Source: a virus. From it: a DNA stretch of 28,368 bases. The notes below the pieces were generated by a model. That model had not been told where the DNA came from. It did no database searches and worked only from the letters and a program-made list of their open reading frames with translations. Positions 3,485 through 20,392 of this stretch are shown piece by piece. The stretch covers positions 1-28,368 of IMG/VR virus record IMGVR_UViG_3300021598_001024. One strand, written 5' to 3'. Each line of letters begins with the position of its first letter. Within the stretch, counting starts at the first letter, position 1. The position numbers and the translations under genes were made by a program.

Positions 3485-4138
3485 TTATTGCATTTCAATT
3501 GGTGCTATACCTTCCACTCCAGGCTGGGGGACATACGGGTTGTTGCCCACGCGCATCATCACCTCGTCCCATTCGTCGGCGGCAGGGATGTCGCCTTCCC
3601 AAGGCTCCCCTGCGTCCCCTTCGGGAGCGTAGATATAGATGAGTCTGTCCCACCAGTGGTAGCAGTTCTTGCCACCTTTCCATTCAAAAATATCGTAGGT
3701 GCTTTCGCCCTTTGCGGCGAACTCTCCGTTGATTCCGTCCGCGCTCATGTCGGCGATGTCCTCGTAGCGGTACTGCACGCCTTCCTCGGAAAGGGCCACC
3801 ATGTTCTGACAGAAATCCCTGCTCACTCCCGTTTTGCTGACGGCGGTGGAGTCAAACTGGCTGTAGGCATAGCGCAGAGCAAAGAAATATCCATTCGGAC
3901 TGATGACGTCGCCCCAGTCGCTGAACTCGGTGTGGTTGTCGTAGGACTCGAGCGTCGACGCGGAGTCGCTGAAAGACCGTCGGCTATTGATTCTGTGGTC
4001 GACCAAGGGTTCGGTCACTCGCTCGCGGCGGAACAGCCTCCATCCCGGAGGTGTCGGAGAGGCCTTGTCCGCGAGGAAATCTAACCACACTTCTGCTTGA
4101 CTATCTGAAATTCTCTCCGGTTGGAAACGACTGAAGTT
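3485..4138 (-). CDS. Portal C-terminal extension in -1 frame
   Basis: This 217-residue frame has no good independent start: a GTG at 4090 is the only candidate, and it overlaps the portal stop by 10 nt. Read back to a run of nine A on the minus strand (4137-4145), the frame is open and continues the portal without a stop, giving NFSRFQPERISDSQAEVWLDFL. Further on it contains SRDFCQNMV, YRYEDIADMS and STYDIFEWKGGKNCYHWW. I recall these motifs as parts of the C-terminal region of longer Bacteroidota portal proteins. A -1 shift would give a 587-aa portal. The alternatives are a separate protein started at GTG, or a homopolymer sequencing error that split one gene. Confidence 0.65.
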   Translation of the reverse strand, partial: NFSRFQPERISDSQAEVWLDFLADKASPTPPGWRLFRRERVTEPLVDHRINSRRSFSDSASTLESYDNHTEFSDWGDVISPNGYFFALRYAYSQFDSTAVSKTGVSRDFCQNMVALSEEGVQYRYEDIADMSADGINGEFAAKGESTYDIFEWKGGKNCYHWWDRLIYIYAPEGDAGEPWEGDIPAADEWDEVMMRVGNNPYVPQPGVEGIAPIEMQ

Positions 4139-5247
4139 TTTTTTTCCTCGTCCATAAAGGCGGCGGGGATGAGTTTCTTGAACTCCAAAGGCAGCGTGAT
4201 GTTCGCCGCAGAAAGTACGGGCCGGATGCCGTCGAGCAGGATTTCCTGGAAAGGCAGGATGACCGTCTTGAGCATCAACTCATAGGCATCCTTCATCTCG
4301 TCCGCGTTACTTCCGAATCCCGTATCCCCTCGCAACCCAAAGAGAAGAGGCGAGGTCACCCGATGGCCCGACAGCACCTTGAGGCTGACCTCTTTGGAGA
4401 GGTAGTCGTACAGGCGATGAGGGTCAGGGATGTTGAACGGCTCGACCGTCGGAGCGTTCTCTTTGTCGTCGTTGTAGACGATAAGCATCCTTCCTGCGTT
4501 TTCCGCCCCGCTGAATTTTGCGTTGATGGCACGCTCCATTTCCACCCGCTCGTCGTCCGTAGGCTGCCCGTTATTGAACGAAATCATCATCGAAGGGAAC
4601 AGGCCGTTCTTGATGCTGGCGAGGTGGTAATCGGCGATGTTTTTGTCCAACTCGATATACTTCGTCGAACCCACGTAATCCGGGATGCCGTAGTAGAAAT
4701 CGATGGGGCTGTAAACCTTGATATGAATCAGGTGCGAAGCGGCCGTGCGGTCGTCCGTGCTGAAAGCAGGGATGGGCTGTGGCTCGCTGCGGCCTGCGTT
4801 GACCTCCGCCCAGTTCGTCGAGTAGTAGAACGTGGGAACTTGGTCTTGGTCGTCGGCCTTTCCGCAACGCACGTACGAAGCAGGGACGTGATTGGTCTCT
4901 GCGATGGTGCTGCGGTCTTGGCTCCAAATCACTTGGAAGTAGCAGTTGCCGTACAACTTGAGGTCGTGGGCGGCACGCTTCATACAGTCCTTTTTAAACA
5001 GCCCCTGCAACTTAAGCCACTGGTCGACGTGGGCATCCTTGTCGGGGGAGTCCAACCCTTCCCCGTAAATCATGTCCCCGATGCCTTTGATGATGGCCGA
5101 ATTGATGGCCGAACTAATGTACAAGTCCTCGAGGTAGTAGGGGTAGGCGTTGTCGTCGCCAAAGAACGCCCACTCCTTGTTGTTCGTGATGAACGCGCTG
5201 CCTAACTCCGGCCCGTAATTGAGGACGCTTAATGAAATCTTAGTCAT
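4081..5247 (-). CDS. Phage portal protein (frame-0 product)
   Basis: A 388-aa protein with portal-like features: an N-terminal part with ISSAINSAIIKGIGDMIYGEG, a central wing with LKLYGNCYFQVIW and a long stretch SPIDFYYGIPDYVGSTKYIELDKNI, then a stem-helix region (LSGHRVTSPLLFGLRG, MLKTVILPFQEILLDGI). The portal forms the dodecameric ring at the packaging vertex and binds the terminase. The frame-0 product ends only 18 residues after an A9 run. At that run a phased A_AAA_AAA heptamer (4144-4138) could shift translation into the downstream frame. The start ATG overlaps the previous stop by 8 nt. Unusually, it lies after the capsid gene and far from the terminase. Confidence 0.8.
   Translation of the reverse strand: MTKISLSVLNYGPELGSAFITNNKEWAFFGDDNAYPYYLEDLYISSAINSAIIKGIGDMIYGEGLDSPDKDAHVDQWLKLQGLFKKDCMKRAAHDLKLYGNCYFQVIWSQDRSTIAETNHVPASYVRCGKADDQDQVPTFYYSTNWAEVNAGRSEPQPIPAFSTDDRTAASHLIHIKVYSPIDFYYGIPDYVGSTKYIELDKNIADYHLASIKNGLFPSMMISFNNGQPTDDERVEMERAINAKFSGAENAGRMLIVYNDDKENAPTVEPFNIPDPHRLYDYLSKEVSLKVLSGHRVTSPLLFGLRGDTGFGSNADEMKDAYELMLKTVILPFQEILLDGIRPVLSAANITLPLEFKKLIPAAFMDEEKKTSVVSNRREFQIVKQKCG
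4137..4145 (-). other. Candidate -1 ribosomal slippery site in portal gene
   Basis: Minus strand reads GAG GAA AAA AAA ACT in the portal frame. The heptamer A AAA AAA (4144-4138) is in the canonical X XXY YYZ phase, after portal codon 370. Slipping back one base gives AAC and enters the open frame that ends at 3485. I see no clear downstream hairpin, so a sequencing indel or strain-specific frameshift mutation remains possible. Confidence 0.5.
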
Positions 5248-5654: not shown

Positions 5655-6209
5655 TTATACAGCCGCAACCACCGCAATGCCATCAATGGCACTGAATGGG
5701 TTGGCTGCTGTTCCGGCTGCGCCATAGTAGCACATCTGACGTTCACGGCCCGTGAACTCCAGCGTGATACCTTTCATATCATTCATCGCAGTTCCTGAAG
5801 CAAAGGAACCGCTGGTCACATCCATGCCGTTACGCGCACCCAACAGATAGAGTTTGTCATCGTTGTCGAGTACCCAAATGTTTGGACGGCCATAGGTGAG
5901 GTTCTGTACCTCTTCGATGTCCGTTGCATCGGGATGCTGCAAAACGATAGTCAACTTTTGGCTGTAGTAGTACGTGCCGTTGTTGATGTCCGTAGAGATG
6001 CTGATGTCAAAATTTGACAACTCCGGCCGCAGTTGATACTCGTAGACGGACAAGTCCGACCCCGAGGTCACAATCGTGATGGTGTTGCCCGTGGCGACAA
6101 ATCCCGTTTGAGCGGGAATGTCCACGTAGTTTTGAATGTACACCTTACGGATGCCGCCTAACTGATTCTTACAATCAATTGAGCGGCCCGCTGTAATGTT
6201 ACAAGGCAT
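5655..6209 (-). CDS. Major tail tube protein (probable)
   Basis: A 184-aa protein starting MPCNITAGRSIDCKNQLGGIRKVYI. The dCK..GGI.KVYI opening, the middle block FDISISTDINNGTYYYSQKLTIVL, and the later blocks PNIWVLDNDDKLYLLGARNGMDVTSG and GITLEFTGRERQ form a beta-sandwich pattern that I recall for tail tube proteins of Bacteroidota phages. Placement right after the major capsid gene and before a strong terminator fits a second highly expressed virion protein. The tube subunits would stack around the tape measure protein encoded at 10742-12811. Alternative: a head decoration protein. Confidence 0.65.
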   Translation of the reverse strand: MPCNITAGRSIDCKNQLGGIRKVYIQNYVDIPAQTGFVATGNTITIVTSGSDLSVYEYQLRPELSNFDISISTDINNGTYYYSQKLTIVLQHPDATDIEEVQNLTYGRPNIWVLDNDDKLYLLGARNGMDVTSGSFASGTAMNDMKGITLEFTGRERQMCYYGAAGTAANPFSAIDGIAVVAAV

Positions 6210-10741: not shown

Positions 10742-12811
10742 TTACAACCTGGCCCTTCGCGCAATGCCTGCGGTCATATTTAGTTGCGCTTGCATTTGGC
10801 TCTCAACCACGTACGCTTGTACGGGGCCGATGTTGAACTGCGGGTTGGTCGGAGGTGCCACGTTGGGAATAAGGGCTTGCGAAATCGGCCGTGAGGCCGT
10901 GTCGGGTTCGTTGCCTTGAGGTGCGCCGATGATTCGTTTGATACTGCTGAAGGCAGCAACTACTGTGCCTATCATCGAAGCGATGTAACCGGCAATGGCA
11001 AATGGCGCACCTGGCCCGGCAGCCGCTGCTGCTGCCGCTGCCCCCTTTACTGCGCTCGCCATCGCCTGCGCTTGGCTCAACAGCACCTCGGCAATGGCCA
11101 ACTTGCGTTGATTCTTACTTCCCTCCTCGCTTAAGTCAGCCAGTTGCCCAAAGAGGCTGCTGACCTCGTTAGCGAAGCCTTGGATGGCTTGGAACCGCTC
11201 GTCGGCGTATTGGCGCGATTCCTCTGCGGCCTCCTCTTCAATGGCGGCGATTTGTTTGGCTTTCCACTCCTCCAACTTGACCGTCTCCAGCCCGTACTTG
11301 GTGGCGATGGCCAGTTGCTCTTGATACTCCGTTTCGAGGTCTGCAAGTTTCTTTTCCTTGTCGGTAAAGAAGAAGGCCTCGTAATCGGCACGCGCCTTCG
11401 TTTCAGCATCGGCATCCTCCTTGCGGTAGTTCTCCCGCAGTTCGGTCAACTCCATCAGGTACTGGTCTTCTATCGCCTTCAGAGCGTTGGCCTTCTCTTC
11501 GGCCGTCATCTTCAACTTGTCCAACTGAGCCATCTGCTCCGTCAGTTCATCGCCCAAACGCTTCTCAGCCAGTTCGCGCTCCGACAAGTTGAACTCCTGC
11601 TGACGATTTAACTGCTCCTCCCAAAAGGCATCTCTTGCCTCGGCCTCTTGGTCAAGAATGGCCTTGTCTTCCTTTGCCCAGCCAGCCTCCATCTCTTTTA
11701 ACTCCAAGCGGTACTTGGTGTAGATGTCGTCGATGAGTGCTTGGCCTGCATTGATGGCTTTTGCCTTCTCCAATTCGTCGGCACGGGCATACTCCAACTC
11801 TTTACGTGCGCGGTCGCGGTCGTCGGCGATTTTAGCCAACGTAATCTCGCGGTCTAACTTGCGAGCCATCTCTGCACGGGCCTTGGCATCTTGGGCGGCC
11901 TTGCGTGCGGCCTCCTCTGCTTTGCGTGTGGCTTCTGCTTTGTCTCTTTCCGCTTGGGCGGCAGCGTTTGCGGCCTCCGCCTGCTTGCCTTCCACATACA
12001 TCAATTCACCCGTGACGCGAGTCAGGCGTTCGGTGATGTCGGCTACGTCTTTGGACGCGCTCTGCTGCCCAGCCATGGCCGATACCAAGTATCCCCACGT
12101 TCCCAAATAGTCGTACCACTGCTTTTCTGCCTGCTCTACCGCTTGGGCCTCCGCTTCCAACAAGGCCTGTTGCAAGGCCTGCTGTTCCGCACGCAGACCT
12201 TCCAAGCGGATGTTTTCGCGGATGGCGTTTGACAAACGCTCCTCGCTTACCGCCTGCTCCAAAGTGAGACCTTGGAGTTCGGGCATGATTTTCTGCAACT
12301 CGCGCAGGGCTTGATTCCTCGCAGTCAACGAAGCGGTGCTGTTCTCGACAATGTTTGAGAGGAACTGGGTGCTGTTGGTGAACTCGTTTACGGCATCTGA
12401 CCCTGCTTTGGCCGCCTCCTTCATCGCCTTCATCCCTGCCGTGGTTCCCGTAAAGAAATCGGAAATCTTCTCCCAATTGTCGATAATCCAGCGGAAGCCT
12501 TCAATGATGAGGAAGATGGGAACGGCCTTAATTGCCGCCCCGAGGACTTTAAAGGAGCCACCCATCCTTCCTACCTGGCGCGAGGTGGATTCGAACCTCC
12601 GCTGAAGCATTTGCAGGTTGCGAGGCAGCAAATCCTTAAACAAGTCGAGACCCTGCTTCCACCCTCCCGTGGCTTTCGCTCCTGCCTCCGAACCTTTGCG
12701 GCCGGTGTTTTCCAACTTCGCTTGTGTCGCCTCCGCCGCGCTTCCTACCTCTTCAATGGCAGCAACGGCCTCCGAGGAGTCCCCGTTGATTTTAATATCT
12801 GCTTGTTGCAT
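10742..12811 (-). CDS. Tail tape measure protein
   Basis: A 689-aa protein with the expected layout. The N-terminal region is helical (DSSEAVAAIEEVGSAAEAT) and is followed by a hydrophobic segment at about residues 88-112 (FKVLGAAIKAVPIFLIIEGF). A very long Ala/Glu/Lys/Arg coiled coil covers about residues 190-560. A second hydrophobic Ala/Gly region lies near 585-625 (SAVKGAAAAAAAAGPGAPFA, then IASMIGTVVAAFSSI). It would span the tail lumen and set tail length. It follows the tail tip genes and lies far from the tail tube gene. Its start overlaps the preceding 58-aa gene by 20 nt. Confidence 0.8.
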   Translation of the reverse strand: MQQADIKINGDSSEAVAAIEEVGSAAEATQAKLENTGRKGSEAGAKATGGWKQGLDLFKDLLPRNLQMLQRRFESTSRQVGRMGGSFKVLGAAIKAVPIFLIIEGFRWIIDNWEKISDFFTGTTAGMKAMKEAAKAGSDAVNEFTNSTQFLSNIVENSTASLTARNQALRELQKIMPELQGLTLEQAVSEERLSNAIRENIRLEGLRAEQQALQQALLEAEAQAVEQAEKQWYDYLGTWGYLVSAMAGQQSASKDVADITERLTRVTGELMYVEGKQAEAANAAAQAERDKAEATRKAEEAARKAAQDAKARAEMARKLDREITLAKIADDRDRARKELEYARADELEKAKAINAGQALIDDIYTKYRLELKEMEAGWAKEDKAILDQEAEARDAFWEEQLNRQQEFNLSERELAEKRLGDELTEQMAQLDKLKMTAEEKANALKAIEDQYLMELTELRENYRKEDADAETKARADYEAFFFTDKEKKLADLETEYQEQLAIATKYGLETVKLEEWKAKQIAAIEEEAAEESRQYADERFQAIQGFANEVSSLFGQLADLSEEGSKNQRKLAIAEVLLSQAQAMASAVKGAAAAAAAAGPGAPFAIAGYIASMIGTVVAAFSSIKRIIGAPQGNEPDTASRPISQALIPNVAPPTNPQFNIGPVQAYVVESQMQAQLNMTAGIARRARL

Positions 12812-15886: not shown

Positions 15887-17112
15887 CACCGCAGTTCTTT
15901 CGTGCGCTTGGCATCGCGGAACTCGAAGTCGTACTGAATCAACTTGTCATTCAGTTCGGTTTGGATTTCGAGGTCTCTTGTCGTCAGCACCACCGGAATC
16001 CAACGGCCTAAATCGTAACGGAGGATGCGTGGAGAGAGGAGGAGGTCTTTAAACACCGCGTTGTAGGACTCTTCGTAAAAGCCACTGGAAGCCACGTAGG
16101 ACGATTCTAACTCGCTGTTGGTCACCCGCGTGCCTCCGTCATTTACCGCTCGGGCATAGGGAACTCCCGGCCCTGCCTGAAACCAGTTGCCCCCGATGGA
16201 GTCGTAGTTCTGTTGGCTCACCTTCACCCTGGGTTTCAGCGCGTTACGGAAGTTGATGTAGTCCCACCCGCCGAGCGAGTTCCAAAACGCCAACCTCGTA
16301 TATGGGTACTTGCACTCTTCGTCAAGGAAGACGGTGTAGGTTTGGCTCATCTTGGGGCTGCTGGGAAGCGTTGCCGATTTCAGCACCACGGTGTAGTGCG
16401 TCCATCCAGCATTTGCGCTTGGCCGCATCGAGGTGTTGATTGTTTGGGCCTCCAAGTTGTTTGGATAGATGCCGATATACAGCAACTTATTTGCAAACGT
16501 CCCTGTGGTTGGGACTTGAAAATGATGGCTATTAAGGGCCGTGTTCCCGGAGAAGTATTGGATGTACACGTAGCGCGACCCCGAGTAGCCGGTGTTGATG
16601 AGCGTCACCGTCCCGTAGTCCTTGACCTGCGCATAGATTTCCGTGGGCAGGATGCTCGCAAATTTGCTGGTAGTCGAATCTGGGATGTAGGTGTCGTTGA
16701 TGCCTTGGTCGTAGGGGCTGTATACCTGCTCAAATTGCGCGTTGACGAAGGTGGCCGTGGTGCTGATTTCGTCCAAGTATTCCACGGGCTCGTCGTTGGC
16801 CGTGGGAGCCGATTCAAATCCGAACTTAATCGTGATGAATTTGTAGGCCTTGGTGAACCCAGTGAACATCGCCGAGGCATGGATGCCTTCGTCCTGATAG
16901 ACGTAGTCGCTGACGATGCGGTGGATATCAAACACCCCTGCGTTCGCTGAGTTGGGAAGTTGTTTCAACTTGGCCAGTTCCGTCGTTCCTTCGAACACTT
17001 GGCAGATGTAGCGGAACTTGGGGTCGGTCACATTCACCCCGTCGTAGACCACATAAACCGCGAGGTCGTTGGCTCCGAGGATGGAATGAGAAGGTTGGTA
17101 GTTGATGGTCAT
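15886..17112 (-). CDS. Tail protein, distal-tail-like (unknown detailed role)
   Basis: A 408-aa protein starting MTINYQPSHSILGANDLAVY, with ATGA overlap to the upstream gene and 1-nt overlap to the downstream one. It is beta-rich with aromatic residues and has GVFDIHRIVSDYVYQDEG near residue 60, which I recall from a tail protein that precedes the large tip protein in Bacteroidota phages. The later part includes YTRLAFWNSLGGWDYINFRN and ESYNAVFKDLLLSPRIL. Position suggests a distal tail or hub-adaptor component. No enzymatic motif is visible. Confidence 0.6.
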   Translation of the reverse strand: MTINYQPSHSILGANDLAVYVVYDGVNVTDPKFRYICQVFEGTTELAKLKQLPNSANAGVFDIHRIVSDYVYQDEGIHASAMFTGFTKAYKFITIKFGFESAPTANDEPVEYLDEISTTATFVNAQFEQVYSPYDQGINDTYIPDSTTSKFASILPTEIYAQVKDYGTVTLINTGYSGSRYVYIQYFSGNTALNSHHFQVPTTGTFANKLLYIGIYPNNLEAQTINTSMRPSANAGWTHYTVVLKSATLPSSPKMSQTYTVFLDEECKYPYTRLAFWNSLGGWDYINFRNALKPRVKVSQQNYDSIGGNWFQAGPGVPYARAVNDGGTRVTNSELESSYVASSGFYEESYNAVFKDLLLSPRILRYDLGRWIPVVLTTRDLEIQTELNDKLIQYDFEFRDAKRTKELR

Positions 17113-17720
17113 ATCGTAATCTTAAAAGTGACCTCCATCTCTTCAGGGAAGTTGGCCTTCAAAAAGTCATCCACGTCCATCTTGAATGCAGCCTCAAGGC
17201 GGGGGATGGACTGGTTGTAAAGCATCTCGAAGGGGTCGCTGATAAAGTAAGTGGGCCTGATTCCATAAAGGTACACGCTTCGGGCTATGCGCTTAATCAT
17301 CTGTTGGCGAGGAACGAAGCGGCCCTTCTCGTCGCGCAGGTCAGGCAGACCCTTGACGATGGCCCAGCGGTCGATGGCAGGAATCAACTTGCCCTTCGGC
17401 CCCGTCCCTGAGCCAAACTTAAAGGGGCTGTTAGGAGCCTTGGCATTACTCGCGAATCCTTGCACCCCTTTGTCGACAAAGTTCCAGTAGGGCGACTTCT
17501 TGAATGGGAATGTCAAGGAGAACTCCTGCCCAGTCAAAGGCATCTCCCACACCACATCGCGGTACAAATTGCCCGTGGCGTTCTTGTTTTCTTTGTCAAG
17601 GGTCTCCCGAGCGATGGAGGCGATGCGGTCGGCCACCGTGGACATCTCGAAATAGAGATGCTTGGCGGAGAAAAGGGCCGTCTCACCCTGCCACTTTATC
17701 GGAAACTCAATAAAGGGCAT
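17109..17720 (-). CDS. Tail completion / HK97-gp10-like neck protein
   Basis: A 203-aa protein starting MPFIEFPIKWQGETALFSAK. It has an N-terminal helix (VADRIASIARETLDKENKNA), the segment SPYWNFVDKGVQGFA, which resembles the VDxGV motif of HK97 gp10-like minor proteins, and a C-terminal helix with SRLEA-like packing (NQSIPRLEAAFKMDVDDFLK). Such proteins act at the head-tail joint or in tail completion. It overlaps its neighbours by 14 nt and 4 nt. The call is from motif and neighbourhood. Confidence 0.6.
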   Translation of the reverse strand: MPFIEFPIKWQGETALFSAKHLYFEMSTVADRIASIARETLDKENKNATGNLYRDVVWEMPLTGQEFSLTFPFKKSPYWNFVDKGVQGFASNAKAPNSPFKFGSGTGPKGKLIPAIDRWAIVKGLPDLRDEKGRFVPRQQMIKRIARSVYLYGIRPTYFISDPFEMLYNQSIPRLEAAFKMDVDDFLKANFPEEMEVTFKITI

Positions 17721-18171
17721 CGCACAAATTCAGCGGGTTCGGCACGTTGATGTCGACCTCCACTCCCCATCCCGTCAGCATGTTGTTAAACCTTGCGGTG
17801 AACGGGGTGAGGTTCAGCGGGAATCCAATGACCCATTTGCCAGGAACGAACTGCCCCGAGGTGCTGGCCGCGAGGTTGAACTGCGCCACGATGTCGCGCA
17901 TGATGAGGTGGGTTTCCGAATACACCTGAATCAAATCGACCCCCTGCTGCTCCTCGATGACGAGGTCGGCCACCACAAACTCGTAGGTAAACGTCTCCGA
18001 GTTTTCGTTCGTGGTCACCCGAGTACACTGCGCGTAGAACAGCGGGTACATGTCGATGGTGATTTTGTCGATGTCCAACTCGTCGATGGCCGTGGTGTAG
18101 AACGCTCGGATTTGGTTGTGGTTTGCCGCGAGGTTCCGGAGGATGGTGTCGATGTCAGATAGCGTTACCAT
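17707..18171 (-). CDS. Tail terminator-like protein
   Basis: A 154-aa protein starting MVTLSDIDTILRNLAANHNQ. The pattern N-terminal helix, then IDMYPLFYAQC, YEFVVADLVIEEQQ, ETHLIMRDIVAQF and a C-terminal beta region WGVEVDINV is the general layout of tail terminator / minor tail proteins that cap the tube. It directly follows the tail chaperone and precedes the gp10-like protein, the usual order for tail completion genes. No catalytic motif. Confidence 0.55.
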   Translation of the reverse strand: MVTLSDIDTILRNLAANHNQIRAFYTTAIDELDIDKITIDMYPLFYAQCTRVTTNENSETFTYEFVVADLVIEEQQGVDLIQVYSETHLIMRDIVAQFNLAASTSGQFVPGKWVIGFPLNLTPFTARFNNMLTGWGVEVDINVPNPLNLCDALY

Positions 18172-18385
18172 TGATTTTGTTCGTGTTAGCGTTCAGGTCG
18201 TTTTCGTACGCAAGGTAGGTAAGCACCTCCTCCACCCGCAGGTTCGTCACCGCCTCAAACCGAAGAATGTCGCCCTGAGCCAGCCCGTGAATAACTTGAT
18301 ACCAACCCCACTTCGACCCCATCTTGGACTGCTCGCCTGCAAAGAGGACTCCGTAACGCGACCAAATACCCTCCCGGTATCGTAA
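18155..18385 (-). CDS. Tail assembly chaperone, T-like domain reached by -1 frameshift
   Basis: A 76-residue frame following the T9 slippery run. It contains KWGWYQVIHGLAQGDILRFE and VEEVLTYLAYEND. I recall this WGWY...LAxGDIxxF...VT...LTYLxYE signature as a small conserved protein of Bacteroidota phages located beside the frame-0 protein. An in-frame ATG at 18424 exists inside the upstream gene, but the residues before the slip site (MSDERSPRRDG) look like antisense of meaning rather than protein. The best reading is a -1 fusion of 171 frame-0 residues plus 76, 247 aa in all, analogous to lambda gpGT. Confidence 0.7.
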   Translation of the reverse strand, partial: LRYREGIWSRYGVLFAGEQSKMGSKWGWYQVIHGLAQGDILRFEAVTNLRVEEVLTYLAYENDLNANTNKINGNAI

Positions 18386-18897
18386 AAAAAAACCATCGCG
18401 CCGAGGGCTACGTTCATCGGACACTCAAGCATCTTGTCCCTTTGGCCGGGTGAGGGCTTGTAGGGTTGAATCTCGTACAGCGGTCCCATCGATGAAACCA
18501 CGGGGCGGTACATCACGGACAGCACGTCCGGCAAACTCTCCCAAACATCTCCCTTGCAGTACTCTTCCAAGTCGACAAACTCGCCGAGGGACAACTCGCT
18601 CCAGTCGGGGATGAATCCGTACTCCACGTTCCCGAGAAAGAATCTCGGCACGAGAGGGAACTCCTCCGTTTTGGGTGGCTCCATCAACTTGACCATGATG
18701 CGTGCAATCCTGGCCACGTCCGCAAAGGCGATGCGCTGAACCATTGGCTTGGGCAATCCGCACAGGATTTCGATGCCCAAACGGACAGCGTCCATCCCCT
18801 CCTTGGGTGGGTCGTTTGCCTTGGCCAACTTGATGTAGGTTCCGACGGTGACGTCGGCCATCGTCTCCGGCACTTGGATTCGTTTACGAGTAGACAT
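18247..18897 (-). CDS. Tail assembly chaperone, G-like frame-0 product
   Basis: A 216-aa protein starting MSTRKRIQVPETMADVTVGT. It contains VEYGFIPDWSELSLGEFVDLEE, VLSVMYRPVV and CPMNVALGAMVFFYD, a set I recall in a chaperone-like tail protein of Bacteroidota phages. After the slippery run at codons 169-171 the frame-0 tail still ends in SGVGIKLFTGWLRATFFGLR, resembling the normal end of the family, so the short product is probably real as well. It overlaps the terminase stop by 14 nt. Together with the -1 product it would bind tape measure and tube proteins during tail assembly. Confidence 0.7.
   Translation of the reverse strand: MSTRKRIQVPETMADVTVGTYIKLAKANDPPKEGMDAVRLGIEILCGLPKPMVQRIAFADVARIARIMVKLMEPPKTEEFPLVPRFFLGNVEYGFIPDWSELSLGEFVDLEEYCKGDVWESLPDVLSVMYRPVVSSMGPLYEIQPYKPSPGQRDKMLECPMNVALGAMVFFYDTGRVFGRVTESSLQASSPRWGRSGVGIKLFTGWLRATFFGLRR
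18366..18392 (-). other. Candidate programmed -1 frameshift signal in tail chaperone
   Basis: Minus strand reads ATG GTT TTT TTT TAC: nine T at 18392-18384, with heptamer T TTT TTT (18391-18385) in correct X XXY YYZ phase. Slipping gives TTA and enters the open frame ending at 18155. Four bases further on, an inverted repeat ATACC/GGTAT (18380-18376 and 18370-18366, 5-nt loop) could form a small stimulatory hairpin. Confidence 0.7.
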
Positions 18898-20035
18898 AGT
18901 GGCCCGTTTTGCGCATTATCTTGTTGAGGCAAATGTACCTAACCGCATCGACGATGTGGTTGAAAGCGTCGACAGGCTGGTTGAGCACCTTGCCGTTTTT
19001 GTCGGTCATCCACTTGTAGTTCCTGAACTCCTTTTGAGCGTTGACATCTTCCTCGCGGACGTGGAGGCGGTACCTGCGCATCAGGTCGATGCCGATGCGA
19101 ACGGAGTCCGGCCCCTTCTTCGAGGGCTTGATGTTGAATCCCATGCGGTGCAGTTCGTCGATGGATTTGGGTTCGGCGGAGTCGGCTATGATTTCGGCCC
19201 TGCGGTCAAGGCCCAGCCTGCGCAACTCGTCTGCGATGTCGGTGTTGGTCATCCGTGTTTGGTAGAGCAACTCCTCCACGTAGAGGTCGTCCCCGTCGAG
19301 GTAGACCAGCACCAAGGCCGTGGGGTCGTTGGCGTAGCCCCAGTCCATCCCATAGGCCAGTGGCTTGGCCGTGGCCGGAACCTTGGAATAGATGCTGAAC
19401 TGGAAGATGGTCTCACGGGATTGCCCGCGTTCTCCCAAGCCATAGATACGCCAGTACATCTCGTCGATGGTTTTCAGGCGTTCGATTTCCGCGATGGTCT
19501 CCGGGTTGAGATACGGGTTGTCGAGGTAGGTGGTCTGAAAGAAGGCCGCGTCGTCCCGAGGAATCACCTGCTCGTAAATCCAGTGGAACTCGTCCGACGG
19601 GTTGTAGTCGATGATGACACGGTCGGTGGTTCGCAGCACCAACTGCTGCCAGTCCTCAAACCGTAGTTCGTTGGCTTCGTTGATGAAGAGGATGTCTCTC
19701 TTCCGTCCGCGCACCTTTTGCGCTTGGTCGACGGAGATGAACTCCACGAGGTTTCCAAAGAGGAGGTAGTTGGCTTCGGACTTGTTGTGGTGTTCCTCGG
19801 AGTAGATGTTCTCGCGTTCCAGGATTTCGAAGAAGTCGCGCATCACCGAACCGCGCAACGAGGGAAAGGACTTCCTCGCGATGGTGATGATGGCCCCGCT
19901 GTTTTGATTCTTGAAGGCCAACTCGATGAGGGCCAAGAGGATGGAGTACGTCTTCCCGCTTCGCGTCCCGCCTTGGTGGACTTGGATGCGCTTGTTGCAG
20001 TTCTTGACGTGGTAATAGGTGGCCGCGAGTTTCAC
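18884..20035 (-). CDS. terL: Terminase large subunit
   Basis: A 383-aa ATPase-nuclease that drives DNA into proheads. Walker A is GGTRSGKT (residues 22-29), Walker B DILFINE (114-120), and the coupling segment is around IIDYNPSDEFHW (141-152). The C-terminal RNase H-like nuclease has AYGMDWGYANDPTAL (Asp231), IIADSAEPKS (Asp285) and HIVDAVRY (Asp363), giving the expected three metal-binding acids. It resembles the Terminase_3 / PBSX-like group. The start is GTG at 20035, overlapping the small subunit stop as GTGA. A large plus-strand frame opposite this gene is a shadow. Confidence 0.95.
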   Translation of the reverse strand: MKLAATYYHVKNCNKRIQVHQGGTRSGKTYSILLALIELAFKNQNSGAIITIARKSFPSLRGSVMRDFFEILERENIYSEEHHNKSEANYLLFGNLVEFISVDQAQKVRGRKRDILFINEANELRFEDWQQLVLRTTDRVIIDYNPSDEFHWIYEQVIPRDDAAFFQTTYLDNPYLNPETIAEIERLKTIDEMYWRIYGLGERGQSRETIFQFSIYSKVPATAKPLAYGMDWGYANDPTALVLVYLDGDDLYVEELLYQTRMTNTDIADELRRLGLDRRAEIIADSAEPKSIDELHRMGFNIKPSKKGPDSVRIGIDLMRRYRLHVREEDVNAQKEFRNYKWMTDKNGKVLNQPVDAFNHIVDAVRYICLNKIMRKTGHYVYS

Positions 20036-20352
20036 TCCTTAAACCACGACAGAGGTTGATGGGGGTGAATCTCCACCTCCTGCCGTTCCACGTAGCCACG
20101 GGCCTTCCCTTTGGTTTTGAGGAAGAAGATGGTGGCGGCGGGGTTTCCCTCCTTGACCAGTTTGTAGAGGTGGCTTTCGGCAAAGTCCAAAACCGAGTCG
20201 TTGATTTCGTTGACTCGCTTGCGGTACTCTTCGTCCTCTTCCATCCAGTTGTAGTGCGACCTACGTGAGACGTCGGCGGCCTTGCACGCTGTCGACACGA
20301 TGCCCAAAGACCTCTCCAAGGCTTCGAGCAAGTCCTCTTTTTTCTTGTGCAT
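20032..20352 (-). CDS. terS: Terminase small subunit (probable)
   Basis: A 106-aa protein starting MHKKKEDLLEALERSLGIVS. An HTH-like segment GIVSTACKAADVSRRSHYNWMEE (about residues 16-38) is followed by oligomerisation helices (YRKRVNEINDSVLDFAESHLYKL) and the segment AATIFFLKTKGKARGYVERQ, common in small terminases that recognise packaging sites. A longer start at 20391 would run through a C8/G8 tract and an intergenic hairpin, so ATG 20352 is preferred. Its stop is coupled to the large subunit start. Confidence 0.8.
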   Translation of the reverse strand: MHKKKEDLLEALERSLGIVSTACKAADVSRRSHYNWMEEDEEYRKRVNEINDSVLDFAESHLYKLVKEGNPAATIFFLKTKGKARGYVERQEVEIHPHQPLSWFKE

Positions 20353-20364
20353 TTTGTGAAAGTA

Positions 20365-20392
20365 AATGGGGAGGTCAACGTCCCCCCCCATT
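20365..20392. other. Intergenic hairpin before terminase genes
   Basis: In the 43-bp gap between methyltransferase stop and terminase start, AATGGGG (20365-20371) and CCCCATT (20386-20392) form a perfect 7-bp stem with a 14-nt loop. There is no T-run after it in the direction of transcription, so it is not a classic terminator. It could be an mRNA processing/attenuation element or part of a packaging site. Confidence 0.4.

Follow-up and report, generated by a model that had tools for sequence, protein, structure and literature searches.

The 28,368-nucleotide stretch of viral DNA analyzed here (IMG/VR virus record IMGVR_UViG_3300021598_001024, positions 1 to 28,368; hereafter called the window) contains a gene that is predicted to undergo recoding at a run of T residues. 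Comparison with relatives indicates that this conserved recoding site is real and that it is a variant of the G/GT kind. As proposed in the initial annotation, programmed −1 recoding would generate two proteins, one short and one long, that have the N-terminal half in common, in an architecture resembling that of G/GT. The conserved element differs from the one first described, and we infer that RNA polymerase is what slips, in which case it would set the ratio of the two products.

Two Reading Frames Overlap at a Run of Nine T's

The gene lies on the minus strand, where the sequence around the site is ATG GTT TTT TTT TAC GAT and the run of nine T's (T9) spans positions 18392-18384. The run holds T_TTT_TTT in the canonical phase of the 216-codon frame-0 ORF. 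In the −1 frame, the reading is uninterrupted from a point ahead of the run as far as position 18155. A net −1 shift on T9 gives a fused product of 171 + 76 = 247 amino acids. The exact phase of the heptamer and the products of 216 and 247 amino acids had all been recorded at the outset, and each was confirmed. The relevant features are as follows.

18384-18392, minus strand: T9 slip site (GTT TTT TTT TAC), read from the sequence; nine or more T's in 301 of 301 loci
18247-18897, minus strand: frame-0 ORF encoding the short product of 216 amino acids (N-domain residues 1-171 plus the frame-0 tail); phrog_32199, E 1e-9; AlphaFold pLDDT of the N-domain 91
18155-18385, minus strand: −1-frame C-terminal segment including the stop, 76 amino acids (LRYREG...KWGWY...LAYEND...NGNAI) of the 247-amino-acid product
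18247-18384, minus strand: overlap read in both frame 0 and frame −1
18365-18381, minus strand: small inverted repeat GATACC-GGGAG-GGTATT (arms 18381-18376 and 18370-18365), found in the window's closest clade only

Runs of nine T's are not rare by themselves, as the window contains two matches compared with 0.69 expected by shuffling. The site is considered nonrandom because it is conserved, and not because such runs are rare in the window.

Run Length Is Maintained among Distant Relatives

More than 580 relatives were reached when viral contigs were searched with profiles, and the best of these were retrieved. A profile search of genome contigs gave six loci, including ones from Flagellimonas onchidii and Galbibacter pacificus; these came from a second scan, the first having returned none. 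The set used to examine the junction comprises the 301 loci that reach it, of which 218 are unique and 62 are representatives under 60% local identity, and it extends down to about 25–30% amino acid identity. IMG/VR has ten very close relatives that form two clades; a third, which is truncated, is 68% identical. T9 is in the same register in all of them. One homologue (L109, JAHZJZ010000222.1) is found in a MAG titled Epsilonproteobacteria, although it probably belongs to a mis-binned flavobacterial phage contig.

Nine T's are present in 180 of the 218 unique loci, ten in 37, and twelve in a single locus. No run of fewer than nine T's was found in any of the 301 junction-reaching loci. Moreover, all 301 have the C-terminal half in the −1 frame, whether the run has nine, ten, or twelve T's. 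Eight or ten T's in the raw reads of most genomes and relatives with their halves in one frame were among the outcomes that the initial annotation had set against programmed recoding. Changes in run length among the relatives always keep the −1 relation, and no relative with the site present has its halves in one frame. HMM frame calls of 0 presented four loci (L169, L316, L341, and L345) as in-frame fusions; inspection by eye revealed T9 and the −1 frame in these loci, and the calls were rejected as HMM artefacts. The sole T12 run seen in the family (L315, position 1967) reflects an in-frame gain of three T's, and the −1 relation is kept.

Among the junction-reaching loci, runs of at least nine T's are present in all three codon phases. 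When the T's preceding and those following the core TTT TTT are counted, the 62 representatives have the patterns 2+1 (38 loci), 1+2 (4), 3+0 (6), 2+2 (8), and 3+1 (6). A preceding codon with only one T (GCT, AGT, or GAT) is accompanied by a following codon with two (TTG or TTC), and a following codon that lacks T (CTG) is accompanied by TTT as the preceding codon. If the two sides assorted independently, 7.7 of the 62 runs would be expected to fall below nine, and the minimum in 20,000 permutations was 2, whereas none was observed. Because the flanking T's compensate in this manner, selection appears to hold the total length of the run and not the heptamer. Every run of nine or more T's contains an in-phase T_TTT_TTT, and it is the homopolymer, instead of the heptamer first thought to be the unit under conservation, that is kept.

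Homopolymers are prone to sequencing and replication errors, and the change of frame might reflect an assembly or sequencing error, or else phase variation at a tract that turns one 247-amino-acid gene on and off. However, the same frame relation recurs in all 301 loci, which come from many samples, persists in the T10 and T12 variants, and is never replaced by an in-frame fusion where the site is present. The same site also occurs in sequenced isolates (Flagellimonas, Galbibacter at 413× per its record, and the Nonlabens phages). Both forms of this reading are refuted by the constant −1 relation, and we consider their probability negligible. Only slightly more credible, and still very improbable, is an arrangement of two independent genes in which the −1 ORF has its own start. 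The −1 frame of the window does include a GTG at 18424, and the annotators of phages P12024L and P12024S called two ORFs. Nevertheless, 162 of the 218 unique loci have no ATG, GTG, or TTG in the −1 frame before the KWGW motif, 201 of the 218 have no ATG, and the lineage of L111 has the C-terminal half fused to the N-terminal half in one ORF. The missing start codons rule out an independent start for most of the family.

Evidence That Both Products Matter

Summed over 52 representatives, the open stretch of frame 0 downstream from the site amounts to 3036 codons (typically 59). Synonymous shuffling of the −1 frame yields a mean of 934 and a maximum of 1335, such that the frame-0 tail is about three times longer than this shuffling predicts. 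In 56 independent pairs, the third-position change of the −1 frame is 0.166 within the overlap, versus 0.381 in the N-terminal part and 0.249 after the frame-0 stop. This extended openness and the lowered third-position change in the overlap indicate that most of the family retains the frame-0 tail, which is dual-coded. In the window's GC-rich clade, no constraint on the frame-0 tail is measurable, and the length of the tail equals expectation (p = 0.4). The two sister clades, one of which includes the window, have 27 of 44 identical residues in frame 0 compared with 40 of 45 in frame −1. Thus, the proposal that both products are plausible holds in that both tails matter across the family, but it is weakened for the window's own clade, in which the frame-0 tail gives no evidence of selection.

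In L111 (24% identity), L192, and L193, tandem genes are present: one of 182–185 amino acids that corresponds to the N-domain only, and one of 247–250 amino acids with both domains in one frame. L194 agrees as far as it goes. In the long gene of this distant lineage (L111, L192-L194), no homopolymer reaches a length of 7. The tandem genes are the top matches to the family profile among 129 ORFs, with E values of 1e-5 to 0.002 for the short ones, and the short gene is likely homologous to the N-terminal part despite weak similarity. A short and a long gene in tandem are most naturally read as a sign that neither form can be dispensed with, and on this comparative evidence the two products look functional. 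The tandem homologues (L111, 5454-6738; L192 and L193, 5454-6747) are not on the strand that carries the tail and head genes but on the other one, beside a convergent tail operon.

Polymerase and Ribosomal Slippage as Possible Sources of the Long Form

Translation of unslipped mRNA would produce the short form, which is 216 amino acids in the window. At T9, a fraction of messages or ribosomes would shift register by a net −1, and translation would then proceed in the −1 frame to yield the 247-amino-acid long form with a helical KWGWY...LAYE C-terminal domain. Most likely, the shift arises when RNA polymerase slips and adds one U within the RNA–DNA hybrid. Transcriptional slippage acts at runs of more than 8 T's or more than 7 A's (PMC3711429). 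It needs no RNA stimulator, whereas ribosomal frameshifting usually needs additional ones (PMC4256274). Slippage by the polymerase is favored because the run is never shorter than nine and because no conserved downstream RNA structure is found. We therefore regard it as somewhat probable that RNA polymerase, slipping at nine or more T's, makes the short and long forms.

The 40–110 nt after the site fold no better than shuffled sequences (mean z about 0 to +0.2, n = 53). The initial annotation had noted a small inverted repeat just downstream, which could act as a stimulator of frameshifting. It is indeed present in the window, but it starts 3 nt after the heptamer, its z of −0.8 is not significant, and it is largely lost or weak in the sister clade. 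We rejected it as a stimulator because it is not conserved.

A competing explanation, which is less probable though far from negligible, is programmed −1 ribosomal frameshifting at T_TTT_TTT. By this mechanism, the Phe tRNAs in the P and A sites would re-pair one base back and some ribosomes would make the long form. Every family member has the in-phase heptamer, and ribosomal frameshifting is used by the tail chaperones of many phages (PMC5009743). Furthermore, longer U runs may simply slip better on the ribosome, and amino acid preferences could add to the run-length rule. However, seven or eight T's would be enough for the ribosome, yet 0 of 301 loci fall below nine. The absence of any alternative slippery heptamer in the loci examined and the unconserved downstream structure also argue against ribosomal frameshifting. 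Polymerase slippage is the explanation that we prefer, and polymerase and ribosomal slippage could both act together.

Gene Neighborhood and Identity of the Protein

The recoded gene is flanked by the following genes.

20032-20391, minus strand: terminase small subunit; phrog_4044, E 1.7e-8
18884-20035, minus strand: terminase large subunit, directly upstream; PF04466, PF17288
17707-18171, minus strand: 154-amino-acid protein, the next gene, in the same order in relatives
17109-17720, minus strand: 203-amino-acid protein; phrog_29822
10742-12811, minus strand: tape measure protein, 689 amino acids; phrog_24676, phrog_1538

The window and Galbibacter have in common the order of large terminase subunit, recoded gene, 150-amino-acid protein, phrog_29822 protein, two larger proteins, and tape measure protein. 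The recoded gene directly follows the terminase in the window, P12024L, and Galbibacter, and it lies four genes ahead of the tape measure gene. It does not occupy the lambda-type position between the genes for the major tail protein and the tape measure protein. Elsewhere in the window, a 184-amino-acid protein encoded after the presumed capsid gene (5655-6209, minus strand; phrog_19091) may, by its position and appearance, be a tail tube protein; the chaperone-like gene is far away.

The N- and C-terminal halves were modeled separately. The structure model of the N-domain is confident (pLDDT 91), and the model of the C-domain alone (pLDDT 56) was left out of structure searches. In BFVD, the N-domain matched proteins of uncultured phages, P12024S, and Flavobacterium phage 6H, as well as one protein named tail assembly chaperone (probability 0.96, E 0.048). 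A PDB fold search with the N-domain gave nothing at E < 0.001, the best VIA-align match (Z 2.7, homeodomains) was not meaningful, and no Pfam family was found for either half. Phage 6H (L280, 10047-10927) has a remote 191-amino-acid homologue in phrog_25418 (profile length 293) upstream of its tape measure gene. Behind this homologue, 300 unannotated nt are open in another frame, and no single simple slip joins the two.

Considered together, these analyses make it likely that the gene encodes a G/GT-like tail assembly chaperone. Most likely, its short and long forms would behave as lambda gpG and gpGT do, coating the tape measure protein and recruiting tail subunits. It is unlikely that the recoding is real but that the protein is no tail chaperone, serving for example as a head-completion or packaging factor beside the terminase. 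The location directly after the terminase in the window, P12024L, and Galbibacter and the lack of a match to a known family would fit such a role. In contrast, the architecture of short and long forms is kept even where recoding has been lost, the tape measure gene and its neighbors are in the same order in relatives, and the BFVD matches include both the named tail assembly chaperone and the phage 6H protein. The name of tail assembly chaperone, as originally assigned, is no more than plausible, given that the gene adjoins the terminase and lies four genes upstream of the tape measure gene.

A Second Candidate Slip Site in the Portal Gene

A homopolymer is also present in the portal gene, where the features are as follows.

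4081-5247, minus strand: portal protein, short product of 388 amino acids; phrog_33693, PF04860
4137-4145, minus strand: A9 homopolymer of the coding strand (GAA AAA AAA ACT), ahead of the portal stop; A9 or A10 in 13 of 13 related loci
3485-4137, minus strand: portal C-terminal part, in the −1 frame behind A9; phrog_33693 positions 436-509 and alignment with single-ORF portals

Among the 13 related loci that cover this spot, A9 is found in 12 and A10 in one, and the −1 relation holds in all 13. In relatives with about 50% identity, a single ORF includes the C-terminal part in frame. The portal gene of the window's lineage seems to use slippage a second time, and a slippage mechanism common to both sites would fit their co-occurrence, as long homopolymers with −1 partner frames, in a single phage lineage. 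The contig IMGVR_UViG_3300005662_000010 (L208, L277) carries the portal gene at both ends with overlapping residues (1-358 and 319-388). Such an overlap points to a complete genome of about 27.8 kb that is either circularly permuted or terminally redundant, and as a consequence the 28.4-kb window may be nearly complete.

Relationship to Known Recoding Systems

The gene resembles lambda G/GT (Xu, Hendrix and Duda) in that, within a phage assembly operon, −1 recoding close to where the first ORF ends would give a short and a C-terminally extended protein. As in lambda-type systems, the second ORF overlaps in the −1 frame, needs no start of its own, and has an in-phase heptamer at the junction. 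However, the family keeps nine or more T's and not a heptamer, no stimulator is conserved, the gene follows the terminase with the tape measure four genes on, most of the family has a long frame-0 tail under constraint, and no sequence similarity to a known chaperone family is detectable.

Genes with transcriptional slippage, including Shigella mxiE and spa13, Thermus dnaX, and Citrobacter tssM1, also carry A or T homopolymers about nine or more in length, yield two length variants, and need no stimulatory structure. They differ from the present case, in which the predicted slippage belongs to a phage assembly operon and the site is kept across hundreds of phage loci. For T4-like tail chaperones, the title of one study (Vladimirov et al. 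2022, cited in PMC10885494) indicates a similar production of forms without translational frameshifting. In the open-access papers searched, we found no report of tail chaperone forms made by polymerase slippage.

The cultured Nonlabens phages P12024S and P12024L (Inhavirus; gp38-39 and gp40-41) carry a homologue right after the large terminase gene, with T9 in the same register (CTT TTT TTT TAT) and a −1 partner frame that contains the motif KWGWY...LAYQSDL. Identity with the window protein is about 26%, and the genes are annotated as two hypothetical proteins whose frameshift was not recognized.

A broader scenario can be offered tentatively. In this whole clade of Bacteroidota phages, polymerase slippage at nine or more T's would set the ratio of the chaperone forms through a dual-coded overlap of about 59 codons, and a lineage that lacks the tract would make them from tandem genes. 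The window's lineage would use A9 or A10 likewise to make short and long portal proteins. If the portal A9 site is expressed, portal proteins of different sizes would result.

Members of the family are frequent in aquatic metagenomes. In annotated isolates the family appears as split hypothetical genes, and the long protein is consequently missed. The natural variants in run length and the two-gene lineage provide a ready comparative test. If the polymerase slips, then the ratio of the chaperone forms would be fixed at the level of RNA and not by the ribosome, which would represent a different solution to the problem that is solved in lambda by G/GT.
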